From Streptococcus sanguinis (lineage in GTDB: Bacteria; Bacillota; Bacilli; Lactobacillales; Streptococcaceae): a DNA stretch of 64,000 bases. Shown here piece by piece: positions 51,684-57,643 of the stretch. The notes beneath the pieces are model-generated. The model worked only from the letters and a program-made list of their open reading frames with translations, made no database searches and was not told the origin of the DNA. The stretch covers positions 930,001-994,000 of the forward strand of contig NZ_CP054570.1 in NCBI RefSeq assembly GCF_013343115.1, in the 5' to 3' direction. The number at the start of each line of letters is the position of its first letter. Positions within the stretch are counted from its first letter, which is position 1. The translations under genes were made by a program, and so were the position numbers.

Positions 51684-53060
51684 TTATTTTGCTTTCAAAG
51701 CTGCTTGAGTAATGTAGTTGTATGGTTTGTTGAAGTGTGGCAGGAAGAAGAGATCCAGCAAGGCCAATTTATCAATTGTAACCTTTTCCTGAATGGCCAA
51801 TGAGAACATGTGAATACCCATAGACATATCTTCTCTAGAAACCATCTGAGCTCCAAGAACTACACGCGTGTCCTTATCATAGACAATCTTAATTGTTACA
51901 TCATGATGCTCAACTTTTTCAAGGAAGGTTGGTTTTTGAGTATCTTTAAACTCAACCACAGCTGGGCTGTAACCAAAGCGTTTTGCTTTCTCTTCAGTTA
52001 GACCAGTTGAAACCATCTTCAAACCAAAGATTTCGATACCGTTAGAACCTTGAACACCGTTAGACTCCAATTCATGACCGCAAGCATTATGAGCTGCTAC
52101 GATACCAGAGCGCAGGGCGTTAGAAGCCAAGGCGATGTAGTTTGTATCGTTGATAGAGTTATCGTAGACAGTTGCACAGTCACCGATTGCATAAACATCT
52201 TTGATGCTAGTTTCTTGCTTCTTATCCACCAAGAAAGCACCATTGCGGAATGTTTCCAACTTGTTAGCACCAAGACCAGTGTTTGGACGGAAGCCAACTG
52301 CCAAGACGACCATATCTACATCATAGCTAGCTTTATCCGTTACAATGCGTTCTACCTTGTTTTCACCTTCAATAGCTTGAACAGTTTGGCCAAAGGCTAA
52401 TTGAACACCATTGTCTTCAAGATTTTGACGCATCATTTCAGACAAGTCGTGGTCATAGTAACCCGCCAAGCAAGTATCCACAACGTCAATCAGAATCACT
52501 TCTTTACCAAGGCGCTTGAAGGCTTCTGCTAACTCAACCCCAATGTAGCCAGCACCTACTACTGCCACACGTTCGATATGTTTGCTCTTGTCTTGCAATT
52601 TCTCAATAACATCTGCAGCATTTTGATACAATTTAACAAACTGCAGATTTTCCAAGGTTGACTTAAATTCCCGACTGTTAGGATCCATTTCAGCACCTTT
52701 AATCGGAGGCAAAATTGGCTGAGAACCTGTTGCTAAAATCAATTTGTCATAAGACTCTACATGCTCTTTACCGTCTACAATAGCTGTAACTTTTTTCGCA
52801 TCATAATCAATTGACTCAACTGGTGAATTCATATAAACTTTTGCGCCTTTTGCTTCAAAAGTTTCTTTATCTGCATAAAAAAGTCCATCTGGCTTGCTGA
52901 TTTGCTGTCCAATCCAAAGAGCCATTCCGCATGCCAAGAATGAAATGTTTGAGTTTTGGTCAAAAATAACTACTTCGTTTTCTGAACCATAATTGTCCAA
53001 CATTGTATTAATACACGCTGTACCTGCGTGGTTTGCACCAACTACAACGATTTTACTCAT
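51684..53060 (-). CDS. nox: NADH oxidase, water-forming
   Basis: A 458-residue flavoprotein reducing O2 to water with NADH, regenerating NAD under air. It has the FAD loop [11 protein letters not shown], redox Cys44 in [12 protein letters not shown], the NAD loop [12 protein letters not shown] and the FAD site YAIGDCATV. Single-cysteine architecture marks the Nox/Npr family rather than E3. Divergent from apbE; a full cre site covers its -35 box. Confidence 0.93.
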
Positions 53061-53251: not shown

Positions 53252-53280
53252 TTGTGAAACCGGTATCTTTTTGATATAAT
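53252..53280 (+). promoter_or_regulatory. apbE promoter
   Basis: -35 TTGTGA (53252-53257), 17-base spacer, -10 TATAAT (53275-53280). The -35 lies in ATTGTGAAA, one half of a Rex-type site without its partner. The remaining 53127-53251 has no gene. Confidence 0.75.
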
Positions 53281-53318: not shown

Positions 53319-54254
53319 GTGGACTTTGCTTCTCGCTCAATCCATTTGATGGGAAGTACGATTTGCATATCTCTCTGTCATGAGCGAGCGGAAATACTCT
53401 TAGATGAGGCGGTCCAACTGCTTCATGTCTATAAAAATCGCTTCAGTGCCAATGATGAAGACTCTGAACTTATGACTATCAACCATTTGGCAGGAATTGA
53501 AAGTGTCTCAGTTCATCCAGAGCTTTTTGAGCTGATTGAGCTGGGGAAATATCACAGCCTAGTAGAAGGCAGCCACTTAAATATCACTATTGGCCCTCTC
53601 GTTCAGACCTGGCGGATAGGATTTTCAGATGCTCGTCTTCCAAGCACAGAAGAGATTCAGCAAGCTCTGAGCTTAACTGACACAAACTTCCTTGAGCTGA
53701 ATCCAGAAGATTGTAGTGTCTTTTTGACTAAGAAAGACATGAAGCTGGATTTAGGTGCCTTGGCTAAAGGTTATATCGCTGATAAGATTAAAGACTATTT
53801 GCTGAGTCAGGGAGTGACCTCTGCTCTTATCAATCTTGGTGGCAATGTCCTGACAATTGGGCAAAATGCAGTCAGCCAGCATGCCTGGCGAATTGGCATC
53901 CAAAATCCCAAGCAGCCTCGCGGAAATCATTCAGCTATACTAGCTGTCACCAATCAGTCAGTGGTCACATCAGGAATCTACGAGCGAACTCTTACAGTTG
54001 AAGGGCAGAACTACCATCACATTCTGGATCGCAAAACAGGCTATCCTATCGAAAATCAATTGGCTAGTCTGACCATTGTTTCAGACAAGTCGGTAGATGG
54101 CGAAATCTGGACAACCCGTCTATTTGGTGAAAGTCCGACATCAATTCTGTCTCAGATTGAAGAGCAAGCAGGGATTGAAGCCTTGATAATCACCCAAGAC
54201 AGTCAGCTCTTCTGTAGCTCAGGTCTTTTAGAGCAGATAATTACTGCTTCTTAA
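53319..54254 (+). CDS. apbE: FAD:protein FMN transferase, cytoplasmic form
   Basis: A 311-residue ApbE family enzyme that splits FAD and attaches FMN to a Ser/Thr of a target protein. Family blocks are LMGSTICISL, DLGALAKGYIADK and LINLGGNVLTIG, plus YHHILDRKTGYPI. It has no signal peptide or lipobox, so it acts inside the cell. The GTG at 53319 gives the usual short N-terminus RSIHLMG; an internal ATG at 53349 would cut it. The late segment is VDGEIWTTRLFG where many ApbE have ADALST. Two FMN reductase genes follow. Confidence 0.88.
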   Translation: MDFASRSIHLMGSTICISLCHERAEILLDEAVQLLHVYKNRFSANDEDSELMTINHLAGIESVSVHPELFELIELGKYHSLVEGSHLNITIGPLVQTWRIGFSDARLPSTEEIQQALSLTDTNFLELNPEDCSVFLTKKDMKLDLGALAKGYIADKIKDYLLSQGVTSALINLGGNVLTIGQNAVSQHAWRIGIQNPKQPRGNHSAILAVTNQSVVTSGIYERTLTVEGQNYHHILDRKTGYPIENQLASLTIVSDKSVDGEIWTTRLFGESPTSILSQIEEQAGIEALIITQDSQLFCSSGLLEQIITAS

Positions 54255-54425
54255 TTCTCAAAAGTGATGAATTTGCTACAGCACTAAGCGGTACTTCTAT
54301 CGCTCTAGCTTTTATAACTAATGCCCATTAAAAAACACCCTCTCTTTCTTCAGGTTTTTACTTGCCTCAAGAAAAATAAATGCACTTACGAGGGATTTGT
54401 ATCTTCATTTCAGAAAGGAAATTTT

Positions 54426-55031
54426 ATGTTAAAACTTATTGCAATTGTTGGAACAAATTCTAAACGTTCTACAAACCGGCAACTTCTTCAATATATGTCT
54501 AAGCACTTCGCTGATAAGGCTGAAATCGAGCTTGTTGAGATTAAAGATATCCCAATGTTTAATAAACCTGCTGACAGAAACGTCCCTGAGTTGGTATCAG
54601 AAATTGCCGAAAAAATCGATGCTGCGGATGGCGTACTTATCGGTACACCTGAGTACGACCACTCTATTCCAGCTGTGCTCATGAACGCCCTAGCTTGGCT
54701 TTCTTACGGAATCTATCCATTGCTGAACAAGCCAGTCATGATCACTGGTGCTTCTTATGGTACACTTGGCTCCTCTCGTGCACAGTTGCAGCTCCGTCAA
54801 ATTTTGAACGCTCCAGAAATCAAGGCAACTGTCCTTCCAGATGAGTTCTTGCTTTCGCATTCTCTTCAAGCTTTTGACCAAAGCGGAGACTTGGTAGATC
54901 TTGACGTTGTCAAAAAGTTGGATGCTATCTTTGATGACTTCCGTATCTTTGTCAAAATCACTGAAAAATTGCGCAATGCACAAGAATTGCTTCGCAAAGA
55001 TGCTGAAGAATTCAACTGGGAAAAATTGTAA
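54426..55031 (+). CDS. NADPH-dependent FMN reductase family protein
   Basis: A 201-residue flavodoxin-like reductase: LKLIAIVGTNSKRSTNR phosphate loop at the N-terminus, DGVLIGTPEYDHSIPAVLMNALAW and GASYGTLGSSRAQLQLRQIL later. It reduces FMN or uses bound FMN with NADPH. The ATG at 54426 has GAAAGGAAATTTT in front; a longer in-frame reading from 54321 has no site. It is a paralogue of the N-terminal domain of the next gene. Confidence 0.88.
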   Translation: MLKLIAIVGTNSKRSTNRQLLQYMSKHFADKAEIELVEIKDIPMFNKPADRNVPELVSEIAEKIDAADGVLIGTPEYDHSIPAVLMNALAWLSYGIYPLLNKPVMITGASYGTLGSSRAQLQLRQILNAPEIKATVLPDEFLLSHSLQAFDQSGDLVDLDVVKKLDAIFDDFRIFVKITEKLRNAQELLRKDAEEFNWEKL

Positions 55032-55048
55032 GATAGGAGACCGAAAGA

Positions 55049-56293
55049 ATGAAATTTGTTGGAATTGTAGGATCAAACTACGAACAATCATATAACCGAA
55101 AATTATTGGAATTCATCCGCCGTCAGTTCAAAATTAAATTTGAATTGGAAGTCTTGGAAATCGATGAAGTCCCAATGTTTAACCAGGATGAAAAATGGGA
55201 TGAAAGCTTCCAATTACGGTATTTGTATAACAAAATCACACGTGCAGACGGTGTCATTATCGCAACCCCTGAGCACAATCATACTATCAGCGCTCCTTTA
55301 AAGAGTGTCTTAGAATGGCTCTCTTACGAGGTTCATCCTTTCGAAAACAAACCTGTCATGATTGTCGGTGCTTCTTACTACGACCAAGGAACTTCTCGTG
55401 CTCAAGTTCACCTGCGTAAAATCCTAGACGCTCCTGGTGTCAATGCATACACTCTTCCAGGTAATGAGTTCTTGCTGGGCAAAGCTAAGGAAGCTTTTGA
55501 CAATGATGGCAATATTACCAACGAAGGAACTGTGAATTTCCTTGAAACATGCTTAGATAACTTTATCAAATATGTAGAGGTCGTTTCAAAATTGAAAAAA
55601 CCAAAACCAATTGAACCTGAAGACTTAGACTGCGGAAAACCAATCGCTACGACAATTACAGAAGTTGATCCAGATGATCCAGAATGGGTGGAAAAAGTCG
55701 CTGAAATCACCGGCGCTGTTTCAGGCGATACTTATGTCAAACTCGACCATGGTATCTTGACCGTTAACCAGATTGATATGTTCTTGAAGGCTATGCCGTT
55801 TGAATTGACGTACGCTGACGATAACAATCAATTCCTCTACTACAACAACGCCCACCAAGACCCAGACACCATGTTTGCCAAACGTGTGCCACCTCAGTCA
55901 GGTAGCCGCATGTCAACCGTTCATGGTTCTCTTCCACCAGCTCGGATGAAAAATGTAGAGTGGGTTATCGGAACACTTCGCAACGGAAACCAAGAATACG
56001 TACGTACAATCGTCCCAGGTTCACCTGCAGGCGTTATCAATACCCACAACTACCAAGCTATGTACTATCCTGACGGATCATACGCAGGTATCAATGAAAT
56101 CGTCTTTAATTTCCAACCATGGCTTGACTGGTACTTAAAAGAAACTGGTCAACGTTTGGTTGGAGGCAGCGGACCATTTGCTCCTGCCGGAGGTCATGGA
56201 GACGCAGACGCTACTTCTGGTGCTTCTGATGCTGGAGGCGATGGAGGTCATGGAGACGGAGGAGCTGATGCAACATCAGGTGCTAGCGCTTAA
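55049..56293 (+). CDS. FMN reductase-PAS fusion with a C-terminal flavinylation-motif tail
   Basis: A 414-residue fusion: residues 1-180 FMN reductase (IVGSNYEQSYNRK, ATPEHNHTISAPLKSVLEWL), a linker, residues about 235-365 a PAS-like/DUF438-type domain (MPFELTYADDNNQFLYYN), and a Gly/His/Asp-rich tail from about 371. The tail holds two copies of DATSGAS (387-393 and 407-413), which fit the ApbE target pattern DxxSGA[ST]; Ser393 and Ser413 would be the attachment sites. The copies use different codons. It lies 17 bases after the reductase gene, with apbE upstream. Confidence 0.8.
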   Translation: MKFVGIVGSNYEQSYNRKLLEFIRRQFKIKFELEVLEIDEVPMFNQDEKWDESFQLRYLYNKITRADGVIIATPEHNHTISAPLKSVLEWLSYEVHPFENKPVMIVGASYYDQGTSRAQVHLRKILDAPGVNAYTLPGNEFLLGKAKEAFDNDGNITNEGTVNFLETCLDNFIKYVEVVSKLKKPKPIEPEDLDCGKPIATTITEVDPDDPEWVEKVAEITGAVSGDTYVKLDHGILTVNQIDMFLKAMPFELTYADDNNQFLYYNNAHQDPDTMFAKRVPPQSGSRMSTVHGSLPPARMKNVEWVIGTLRNGNQEYVRTIVPGSPAGVINTHNYQAMYYPDGSYAGINEIVFNFQPWLDWYLKETGQRLVGGSGPFAPAGGHGDADATSGASDAGGDGGHGDGGADATSGASA

Positions 56294-56308: not shown

Positions 56309-56340
56309 AAAAAGAATGGATGATAAGTCCATTCTTTTTT
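56309..56340. terminator. Terminator between the flavin cluster and the thioredoxin lipoprotein
   Basis: AAAGAATGGA and TCCATTCTTT form a 10-bp stem followed by a T run; A residues on the other side allow use by both converging operons. Confidence 0.85.
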
Positions 56341-56343
56341 GCT

Positions 56344-56919
56344 TTATTTCATTTCTTTGAAAGCTGCTTCTGCATCAGCATTACTGATAGCTCCAAACTG
56401 GATTTTACCGATTTTCCCTTGACTGTCAATGAGGAATTCAGTCGGGATACTGCGGATCTGATAGGCTTGGAAAATTTCTCCTGAAGTATCAAACAGAACT
56501 GGTACATCTTTATAACCTTGTTCTTGAAACCATTTTGGAAATTCCTCGACAGATTTCTCTCCTTGGAGACCTGGTGCTACAACTGTCAAGATTTCAAAAT
56601 CACGATCTGTTTTACCAGCCAATTCGACCAATTCCGGCATACTCTTCTTACAAGGTCCACACCAAGAAGCCCAGAATTTTAGATAAACTTTCTTGCCTTT
56701 GTAGTCAGAAAGTTTGACTGTTTTTCCATCCATAGACTGCAAAGTAAAGTCAGGTGCCTCTTGACCGACAGCTGCTTGGGCGACTGTACTTGTCTGAGCA
56801 ACTTCGCTAGATGAACTACTGGTTGTAGGCATAGTCATAGGCTTATCCTCCTGTTCTGAGCAGGCTGCCAAAAAGGCTACAGCTGACACAGTTGCTAATA
56901 ATGTAACGAATTTTTTCAT
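56344..56919 (-). CDS. Extracellular thioredoxin-like lipoprotein (Etrx/TlpA type)
   Basis: A 191-residue lipoprotein: signal with lipobox LAAC, Ser-rich linker, and a thioredoxin domain with WCGPC in FWASWCGPCKKSMPE. It should receive electrons from the membrane protein CcdA, whose gene ends 16 bases upstream, and reduce surface disulfides or methionine sulfoxide reductase. The ATG at 56919 starts the lipoprotein signal; longer forms are not signal-like. Paralogue of the lipoprotein at 61484-62047. Confidence 0.88.
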   Translation of the reverse strand: MKKFVTLLATVSAVAFLAACSEQEDKPMTMPTTSSSSSEVAQTSTVAQAAVGQEAPDFTLQSMDGKTVKLSDYKGKKVYLKFWASWCGPCKKSMPELVELAGKTDRDFEILTVVAPGLQGEKSVEEFPKWFQEQGYKDVPVLFDTSGEIFQAYQIRSIPTEFLIDSQGKIGKIQFGAISNADAEAAFKEMK

Positions 56920-56935
56920 ATTTCTTTCTCTCCTT

Positions 56936-57643
56936 TTATCCAAAAAGTCCAGACAGGGCATTAAGCTGTCCTAACATCAGCAGAATTCCCATCAGAATAA
57001 TCAGAGCTCCGCCGATTTTCTTCATCAGGCCCATATAAGGCTTGATTTTATTAAAATACTGCATAACAAAGCTAGATGCCAAAGCTAGGATTAGGAAAGG
57101 CAGGGCCATTCCCAAAGTGTAAATCAAGGTCAAAATTGCTCCCTGAAAAGCACCATTCCCACCTGAAGCTGCTAAGGCTAAGACTGAGCTGAGAATCGGA
57201 CCAATGCAGGGAGTCCAACCAAAGCTAAAGGTAATCCCCAGTAAGAAAGCAGACCAAAAATGATGTTTCTGGCCGTTCTTTTTAAAAGTCAAGCTCTTTT
57301 GAATCTGTAACTGACGAATATTAATAAGCTCCATCTGATGCAGACCTAGCAGAATGATGAGGCCGCCCATCACATAACGAAAGGTCGGACTGTAAATAAT
57401 AGTTCCTAAAAATCCAGCTCCAAAGCCAAGCAAAAAGAAGACTGTCGAGATGCCTGCAATGAAAAAGAGCGTTCTGACCATGCCTTGCCAAGCAAGCTCC
57501 CGGCCAAATACTTTTAGGGTCTTGACCTCCTTGTCATCCAATAAAATGCCAATATAAACCGGCAATAAGGGAAAAATACAAGGGGAAAAGAAGGACAAAA
57601 TACCCGCTAAAAAAACTGAAACAAAAAATAAAGGTGATTCCAT
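56936..57643 (-). CDS. Cytochrome c biogenesis-type protein CcdA (first copy)
   Basis: A 235-residue, six-helix membrane electron carrier of the DsbD/CcdA family. The two redox cysteines are in FFSPCIFPLLPVY and GWTPCIGPILSS. It moves electrons from cytoplasmic thioredoxin to the thioredoxin lipoprotein encoded next. Very similar in sequence to the copy at 62465-63175. The preceding 57644-57816 gap holds its promoter (extended TATAAT near 57690) and no gene. Confidence 0.9.
   Translation of the reverse strand: MESPLFFVSVFLAGILSFFSPCIFPLLPVYIGILLDDKEVKTLKVFGRELAWQGMVRTLFFIAGISTVFFLLGFGAGFLGTIIYSPTFRYVMGGLIILLGLHQMELINIRQLQIQKSLTFKKNGQKHHFWSAFLLGITFSFGWTPCIGPILSSVLALAASGGNGAFQGAILTLIYTLGMALPFLILALASSFVMQYFNKIKPYMGLMKKIGGALIILMGILLMLGQLNALSGLFG

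Follow-up and report, generated by a model that had tools for sequence, protein, structure and literature searches.

The window analysed here, a 64,000-nucleotide stretch of Streptococcus sanguinis DNA, contains a gene for an FMN_red-PAS_10 fusion protein that ends in two flavinylation motifs, in one locus with a gene for an ApbE-family FMN transferase. We consider it probable that this ApbE flavinylates Ser393 and Ser413 and that electrons from NAD(P)H travel by way of the flavins thus tethered to an acceptor. Flavinylation of both serines, predicted from the sequence, is in our estimate very likely given published relatives and conservation, with the function of the tail as a redox relay rather than an anchor being less certain. 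The locus comprises apbE, a short FMN_red gene and the fusion gene, all on the (+) strand as judged from the open reading frame list and Pfam, and its features are as follows:

53252..53280, + strand: promoter-like site TTGTGA-17-TATAAT with TG ahead of the second hexamer, 5' of apbE (consensus match only)
53319..54254, + strand: apbE, FAD:protein FMN transferase family (PF02424), 311 residues; Ser218, Arg223 and His234 kept, Glu262 at the position of the catalytic Asp
54426..55031, + strand: short FMN_red paralogue, 201 residues, between apbE and the fusion gene; tail motif absent
55049..56293, + strand: FMN_red-PAS_10-tail fusion protein, 414 residues (open reading frame list, Pfam, model)
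55049..55489, + strand: FMN_red domain, residues 1-147 (Pfam)
55772..56113, + strand: PAS_10 domain, residues 242-355 (Pfam)
56165..56290, + strand: C-terminal tail, residues 373-414 (pLDDT <50)
56207..56227, + strand: flavinylation motif 1, DATSGAS 387-393, predicted acceptor Ser393 (sequence, conservation)
56267..56287, + strand: flavinylation motif 2, DATSGAS 407-413, predicted acceptor Ser413 (sequence, conservation)
56309..56339, + strand: terminator-like hairpin and T run 3' of the fusion gene (consensus match only)

Sites of the promoter-like pattern number 6, against 6.2 in shuffled sequence. The start of the short FMN_red gene at 54426 was picked from a ribosome-site-like sequence, the mechanical open reading frame list placing it at 54321. 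An earlier, sequence-only reading of this DNA had put ApbE next to the reductase; apbE is indeed near the fusion gene, but the short FMN_red gene between them had been missed. Domain assignments are clear, with FMN_red (PF03358) in the fusion protein scoring 119 bits (cut-off 24) and ApbE (PF02424) in the apbE product 260.6 bits (cut-off 25.6), and neither FMN_bind nor FAD_binding_2 is found by Pfam in the fusion protein. The ApbE domain begins at residue 11, so that a signal peptide would not fit, in agreement with the earlier claim that this ApbE has no export signal.

The two copies of DATSGAS in the tail, at the positions first reported for them, are encoded by GACGCTACTTCTGGTGCTTCT and GATGCAACATCAGGTGCTAGC, with synonymous differences at five of seven positions. 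ApbE is described as recognizing D-x-x-[S/T]-G-A-[S/T] and modifying the last residue (PMC12052999), a rule with which the assignment of Ser393 and Ser413 accords. We refer to this published motif as the strict pattern and to one that admits [G/S/A] at position 5 as the loose pattern. Among 80 streptococcal loci, kept out of 189 confirmed in a genome-contig scan and all encoding the fusion protein, the tail carries two loose motifs in 74, three in 3 and one in 3. Across the 67 distinct two-motif tails of this set neither motif shows any change at D, first S, A or acceptor S (67 of 67 each), and G is kept 67 and 65 times respectively, with several codons used for each residue, and the linker between the motifs runs from 10 to 15 residues in 31 different sequences. 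Invariant motif residues amid varying codons and linkers argue for selection on the tail at the protein level, as the sequence-only reading had deduced from the two copies.

The search for homologues with one, two or more motifs that this reading had proposed covered 255 listed proteins (the best 120 of 1406 matches, the best 120 of 1433 and all 18 of a third search, with some overlap), in 239 of which the tail was located by an anchor pattern, the other 16 being dropped. Among these 239 listed clusters the loose pattern occurs at least twice in 222, once in 14 and not at all in 3, two being the commonest count (167 clusters), and the strict pattern at least twice in 140, once in 60 and not at all in 39. 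The 361 strict motifs in the 239 listed tails compare with a mean of 1.04 and a maximum of 4 in 200 tail shuffles and are thus not due to chance. In 230 of the 236 listed homologues having a loose motif, the last one lies 1-4 residues from the C-terminus, and S replaces G at position 5 in 155 of the 524 loose motifs. A second set of 40 loci, picked from the listed matches mostly at one to three per genus, covers genera and families of the order beyond Streptococcus. Here the loose pattern is found two or more times in 37 loci, once in 2 and not in 1 (L151), and the strict pattern two or more times in 23, once in 6 and not in 11, imperfect motifs being frequent outside Streptococcus. The tails of L151 and L152 hold no motif, loose pattern included, and off-consensus motifs include DATASAS with DATSSAS (L070), DATSAAS (L067, L078) and DATAGAS (L066).

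The number of motifs per tail bears on what the flavins would be for. Huang et al. conclude for Lactococcus FMN_red proteins that the flavin is secured at an existing FMN site (PMC11334425), and by extension the tail motifs of the fusion protein might merely anchor FMN in the reductases' own pockets, yielding an FMN reductase unable to lose its cofactor and no relay. In one variant each of the two motifs would supply the flavin of one pocket, for instance in the two FMN_red proteins of the operon, which would suit both the prevalence of two motifs and the side-by-side FMN_red pair in 120 of 120 loci. The tail, modelled without structure (pLDDT <50), is long enough to reach an FMN pocket. Motif arrays in relatives are larger than anchoring calls for: tails with three, four and up to seven motifs (L154) occur, and an 882-residue FMN_red protein with three PAS_10 domains (L198) carries nine motifs placed before, between and after its PAS domains, exceeding the available pockets. 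Motif-tailed PAS_10 proteins without any FMN_red (L147, L216) likewise speak against anchoring, which we regard as the less likely account, though the strongest of the alternatives considered.

Throughout the Lactobacillales the gene set is a recurrent one, as seen in the 80 streptococcal and 40 other loci: the short FMN_red gene adjoins the fusion gene in all of them, and apbE lies within the fetched flank in 78 of 80 and 37 of 40, respectively, the three other loci without apbE in the fetched stretch having ApbE elsewhere in their genomes. With respect to absence of the motif beside apbE, which the sequence-only reading had named as speaking against its proposal, the loci show a conserved motif accompanied by apbE at these frequencies. 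An HTH regulator, with one member checked by Pfam, is the sole recurrent neighbour in the non-streptococcal set (21 of 40 loci), being placed directly 5' of apbE in 18, heading the set with apbE last in 2 and elsewhere in 1; it is absent 5' of apbE in the window. Comparison of the loci by neighbour clusters gave no acceptor gene linked across families. The divergent neighbour in the window, an NADH oxidase gene (nox), was considered as electron partner and rejected as a conserved part of the set, since proteins that cluster with it come from just 7 of 51 loci (6 streptococcal). The downstream CcdA/TlpA-like genes were set aside too: they lie on the opposite strand in the window, and among the 51 loci a cluster of 235-residue proteins, equal in length to the CcdA-like one of the window, recurs in 4, each of them streptococcal.

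The genome to which the window belongs encodes no second ApbE; the one it has is best matched among solved structures by 7esa, which we take to be Listeria FmnB. The FmnB active site is reported to comprise Ser257, Arg262 and His273 with Asp301 of the triad (PMC12052999). In the alignment to 7esa the first three correspond to S218, R223 and H234 of the window's protein and Asp301 to E262, the exchange of Asp for Glu being a conservative one. The loci yielded 141 ApbE rows, 136 of them distinct. All 141 have Ser, Arg and His, and at position 262 Glu stands in 135 (130 distinct) and Asp in six. Of the six, four are streptococcal ApbEs whose N-termini look lipoprotein-like by eye, and two are short and come from genomes with no fusion match (G224, G478). 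A tree built from 94 of the 141 rows groups the four on a single long branch and places the two short Asp proteins within the Glu-bearing ones. Huang et al. name co-expression with the cognate apbE in their results text and the use of purified Listeria ApbE in their methods (PMC11334425). Use of the Listeria enzyme in the published Lactococcus assay and Glu at the catalytic position together make the activity of the linked ApbE group uncertain. The cognate ApbE might then be inactive or act on another target, leaving the tail unflavinylated in the cell, and the missing strict motif in 11 of the 40 other loci would fit with this. We hold this for the least probable of the explanations weighed here, as the retained Ser, Arg and His, the invariance of the motif residues in Streptococcus with their synonymous variation, and the lack of any FMN_bind match in a profile search of the window's genome, which thus offers no FMN_bind substrate, all count against it.

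The distribution of ApbE across genomes points the same way. In 80 of 395 genomes from outside Streptococcus (the 40 that supplied the second set of loci, plus 40 that had only weak matches, taken in listing order), a short, lower-scoring ApbE class is present in 40/40 genomes with the fusion and 0/40 without, and a long, higher-scoring class in 32/40 of each; no ApbE at all is found in 0/40 with the fusion and 8/40 without. Because the class split, at 267 bits, was set after the scores had been seen and the genomes are related, significance values are indicative only. The fusion occurs in 53 of 68 Streptococcus genomes (in G454 and G455 as fragmentary matches), and ApbE is present in each of the 53 and in 12 of the 15 without the fusion, so that the three ApbE-less genomes all lack it (Fisher p 0.009).

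A further explanation centres on the PAS_10 domain, in or to which the tail flavins could sit or signal, making the fusion protein a cytoplasmic redox sensor or regulator and not a catalyst. Within Streptococcus PAS_10 shows strong conservation, its identity to the window's domain being 82-100% across 18 chosen loci, and it is found joined to motif tails in the FMN_red-less proteins mentioned above. An engineered LOV protein, a member of the PAS superfamily, is reported to function with ApbE-attached FMN (PMC10722498). FMN_red-tail proteins without a fused PAS occur (L201, L192, L193, L195). Eight loci of one family encode such proteins, and in five of the eight (L187-L191; Pfam check on L188 only) a separate PAS gene lies near the tail-bearing FMN_red gene. 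Their genera, g87 and g81, we presume to be Lactococcus. The presence of PAS_10 as a nearby gene accords with a sensor, and its absence from the tail-bearing reductases themselves does not, nor does the fusion protein contain an output domain; we therefore judge a sensory role improbable. To our knowledge no ligand of PAS_10 has been described, and the domain modelled alone has a mean pLDDT of 38.1.

Returning to a relay, related architectures suggest where its electrons may go. FMN_red is fused to FMN_bind and FAD_binding_2 in L197 (Pfam) and in P0250 and P0252-P0255 (precomputed domains), and of three Streptococcus loci retrieved to look at this type, two (L213, L214) have a short FMN_red and a one-motif FMN_red beside a divergent FAD_binding_2 gene, with an AraC-type regulator gene in between in L214. 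These fusions and pairs suggest a common plan in which NAD(P)H electrons pass by way of FMN_red and covalent FMN to an acceptor enzyme. An FAD_binding_2 enzyme was rejected as the acceptor in the window's genome: its four matches score 28.7-30.3 bits, above the Pfam cut-off, and cover only 32-101 of 414 positions. With such short matches and no FMN_bind, the acceptor here would be something else. Mutants of S. sanguinis in SSA_1114 to SSA_1126 are stated still to compete with S. mutans (data not shown in PMC4862721), and the genes of the locus, with SSA_1126 equated with apbE from gene order, thus appear dispensable for this competition.

In the mechanism we propose, ApbE and the fusion protein would act together in the cytoplasm, the cognate ApbE attaching a single FMN to each of Ser393 and Ser413. 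The short FMN_red would pair with the fusion protein, each FMN_red pocket presumably holding a non-covalent FMN, and NAD(P)H would give its electrons to the reductase domains, from where they would move to the tail flavins and on to the acceptor. The fusion or pairing of similar FMN_red proteins with FAD_binding_2 enzymes in relatives suggests a mobile output arm, the tail reaching partners that vary from locus to locus, and PAS_10 may bind or select the partner here. We count against this main reading the Glu in the linked ApbEs, the imperfect motifs outside Streptococcus and the want of a family-wide acceptor gene, and also the competing S. sanguinis mutants. More tentatively, and as a possibility we would not yet favour, the Lactobacillales could possess an intracellular flavin wire, in which FMN_red pairs feed NAD(P)H electrons into C-terminal arrays of 1-9 ApbE-attached FMNs, made up of bare motifs of seven residues and of reusable PAS_10-tail units, with short Glu-type ApbEs dedicated to them and acceptor enzymes that vary by locus.

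Most of what is known of ApbE flavinylation concerns exported proteins. The locus and its relatives point to widespread, little-studied intracellular ApbE flavinylation in the order Lactobacillales, of a proposed type in which a soluble NAD(P)H reductase carries tethered flavins and a PAS domain. The fusion protein is a clear candidate target for the only ApbE of S. sanguinis, and the question is raised whether ApbE functions with Glu in its triad. The natural C-terminal flavin tags could find use in protein labelling and redox engineering.

The N-terminal domain matches ChrR/FerB-type NAD(P)H:acceptor FMN reductases (3svl, 3u7r) in fold and sequence, for which, unlike the window's protein, PAS_10 and tail motif are not reported. 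Among the solved structures listed as matches, which are otherwise flavodoxin-like folds, a PAS relative is 2qkp. This domain probably stems from a DUF438-hemerythrin-PAS_10 protein, of which a copy in L123 (11408-12697) has PAS_10 in common with the window's protein but neither FMN_red nor motif tail. The closest published system is that of Huang et al. 2024, who describe apbE-linked FMN_red proteins, mostly from Firmicutes, with a C-terminal extension of one to two motif-like sequences, and flavinylation of two Lactococcus examples that requires the motif Ser/Thr, with Ala controls (PMC11334425). The arrangement in the window, which the sequence-only reading had believed undescribed, is therefore not a first description, sharing with these proteins the FMN_red domain, the unstructured motif-bearing extension, the linkage to apbE and the Firmicutes host. 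Set against the wording of that paper, whose main text uses the word PAS 0 times, it differs by the PAS_10 that separates reductase from tail, by the second FMN_red gene and by relatives with more than two motifs. In the literature searched we found no account of PAS_10 in such proteins, of an operon with two reductases, of arrays beyond two motifs or of ApbEs naturally bearing Glu; none of the papers examined reports covalent flavin on a PAS_10-containing relative.

Soluble fumarate reductase of Klebsiella is served by an ApbE without signal peptide (PMC12052999). The window resembles this system in its signal-less ApbE and soluble protein, and a branch of its relatives fuses FMN_red, FMN_bind and FAD_binding_2, the latter two of which the window's protein lacks. 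Multi-flavinylated proteins, with FMN-bind domains and generally predicted to be extracytosolic (PMC8238504, PMC11334425), have several ApbE sites per chain in common with the fusion protein, which instead presents bare tail motifs and no export signal. Finally, the engineered C-terminal Flavin-tag, in which a terminal motif of seven residues is enough for ApbE (PMC12052999), is, like the covalent LOV proteins, man-made, whereas the motifs of the window are natural and conserved.

The 15-base string GGAGGTCATGGAGAC lies, in identical form, ahead of both flavinylation motifs in the tail-coding DNA of the fusion gene (window positions 56189-56203 and 56243-56257), which suggests that the tail of the fusion grew through duplication of a unit.

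At the position aligned to Glu262 of the window ApbE (53319-54254), Glu replaces the catalytic Asp in 135 of the 141 ApbE rows from the loci L002-L217, and Asp is found there in two short ApbEs (L210 and L211), both from genomes without a fusion match. The window locus is flanked by the following genes:

51684-53060, minus strand: nox, H2O-forming NADH oxidase gene, divergent from apbE
56344-57643, minus strand: genes for a TlpA/ResA-like thioredoxin protein and a CcdA-like membrane protein, downstream on the opposite strand

Directly before apbE, the window holds no gene for a regulator of about 285 amino acids. Such a regulator is present in 21 of 40 non-streptococcal loci (L113, 4166-5020, with an HTH by Pfam, and 20 others), immediately 5' of apbE in 18.

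Three streptococcal FMN_red proteins carry a single motif right behind the FMN_red domain, followed by more tail sequence:

L212, 5884-6741
L213, 4633-5397
L214, 4642-5511

A short FMN_red gene lies beside each of the three; FAD_binding_2 genes neighbour those of L213 and L214, and in L214 an MFS transporter gene does too. Elsewhere, one FMN_red protein of 882 residues (L198, 4500-7145, minus strand) combines three PAS_10 domains with nine flavinylation-like motifs.
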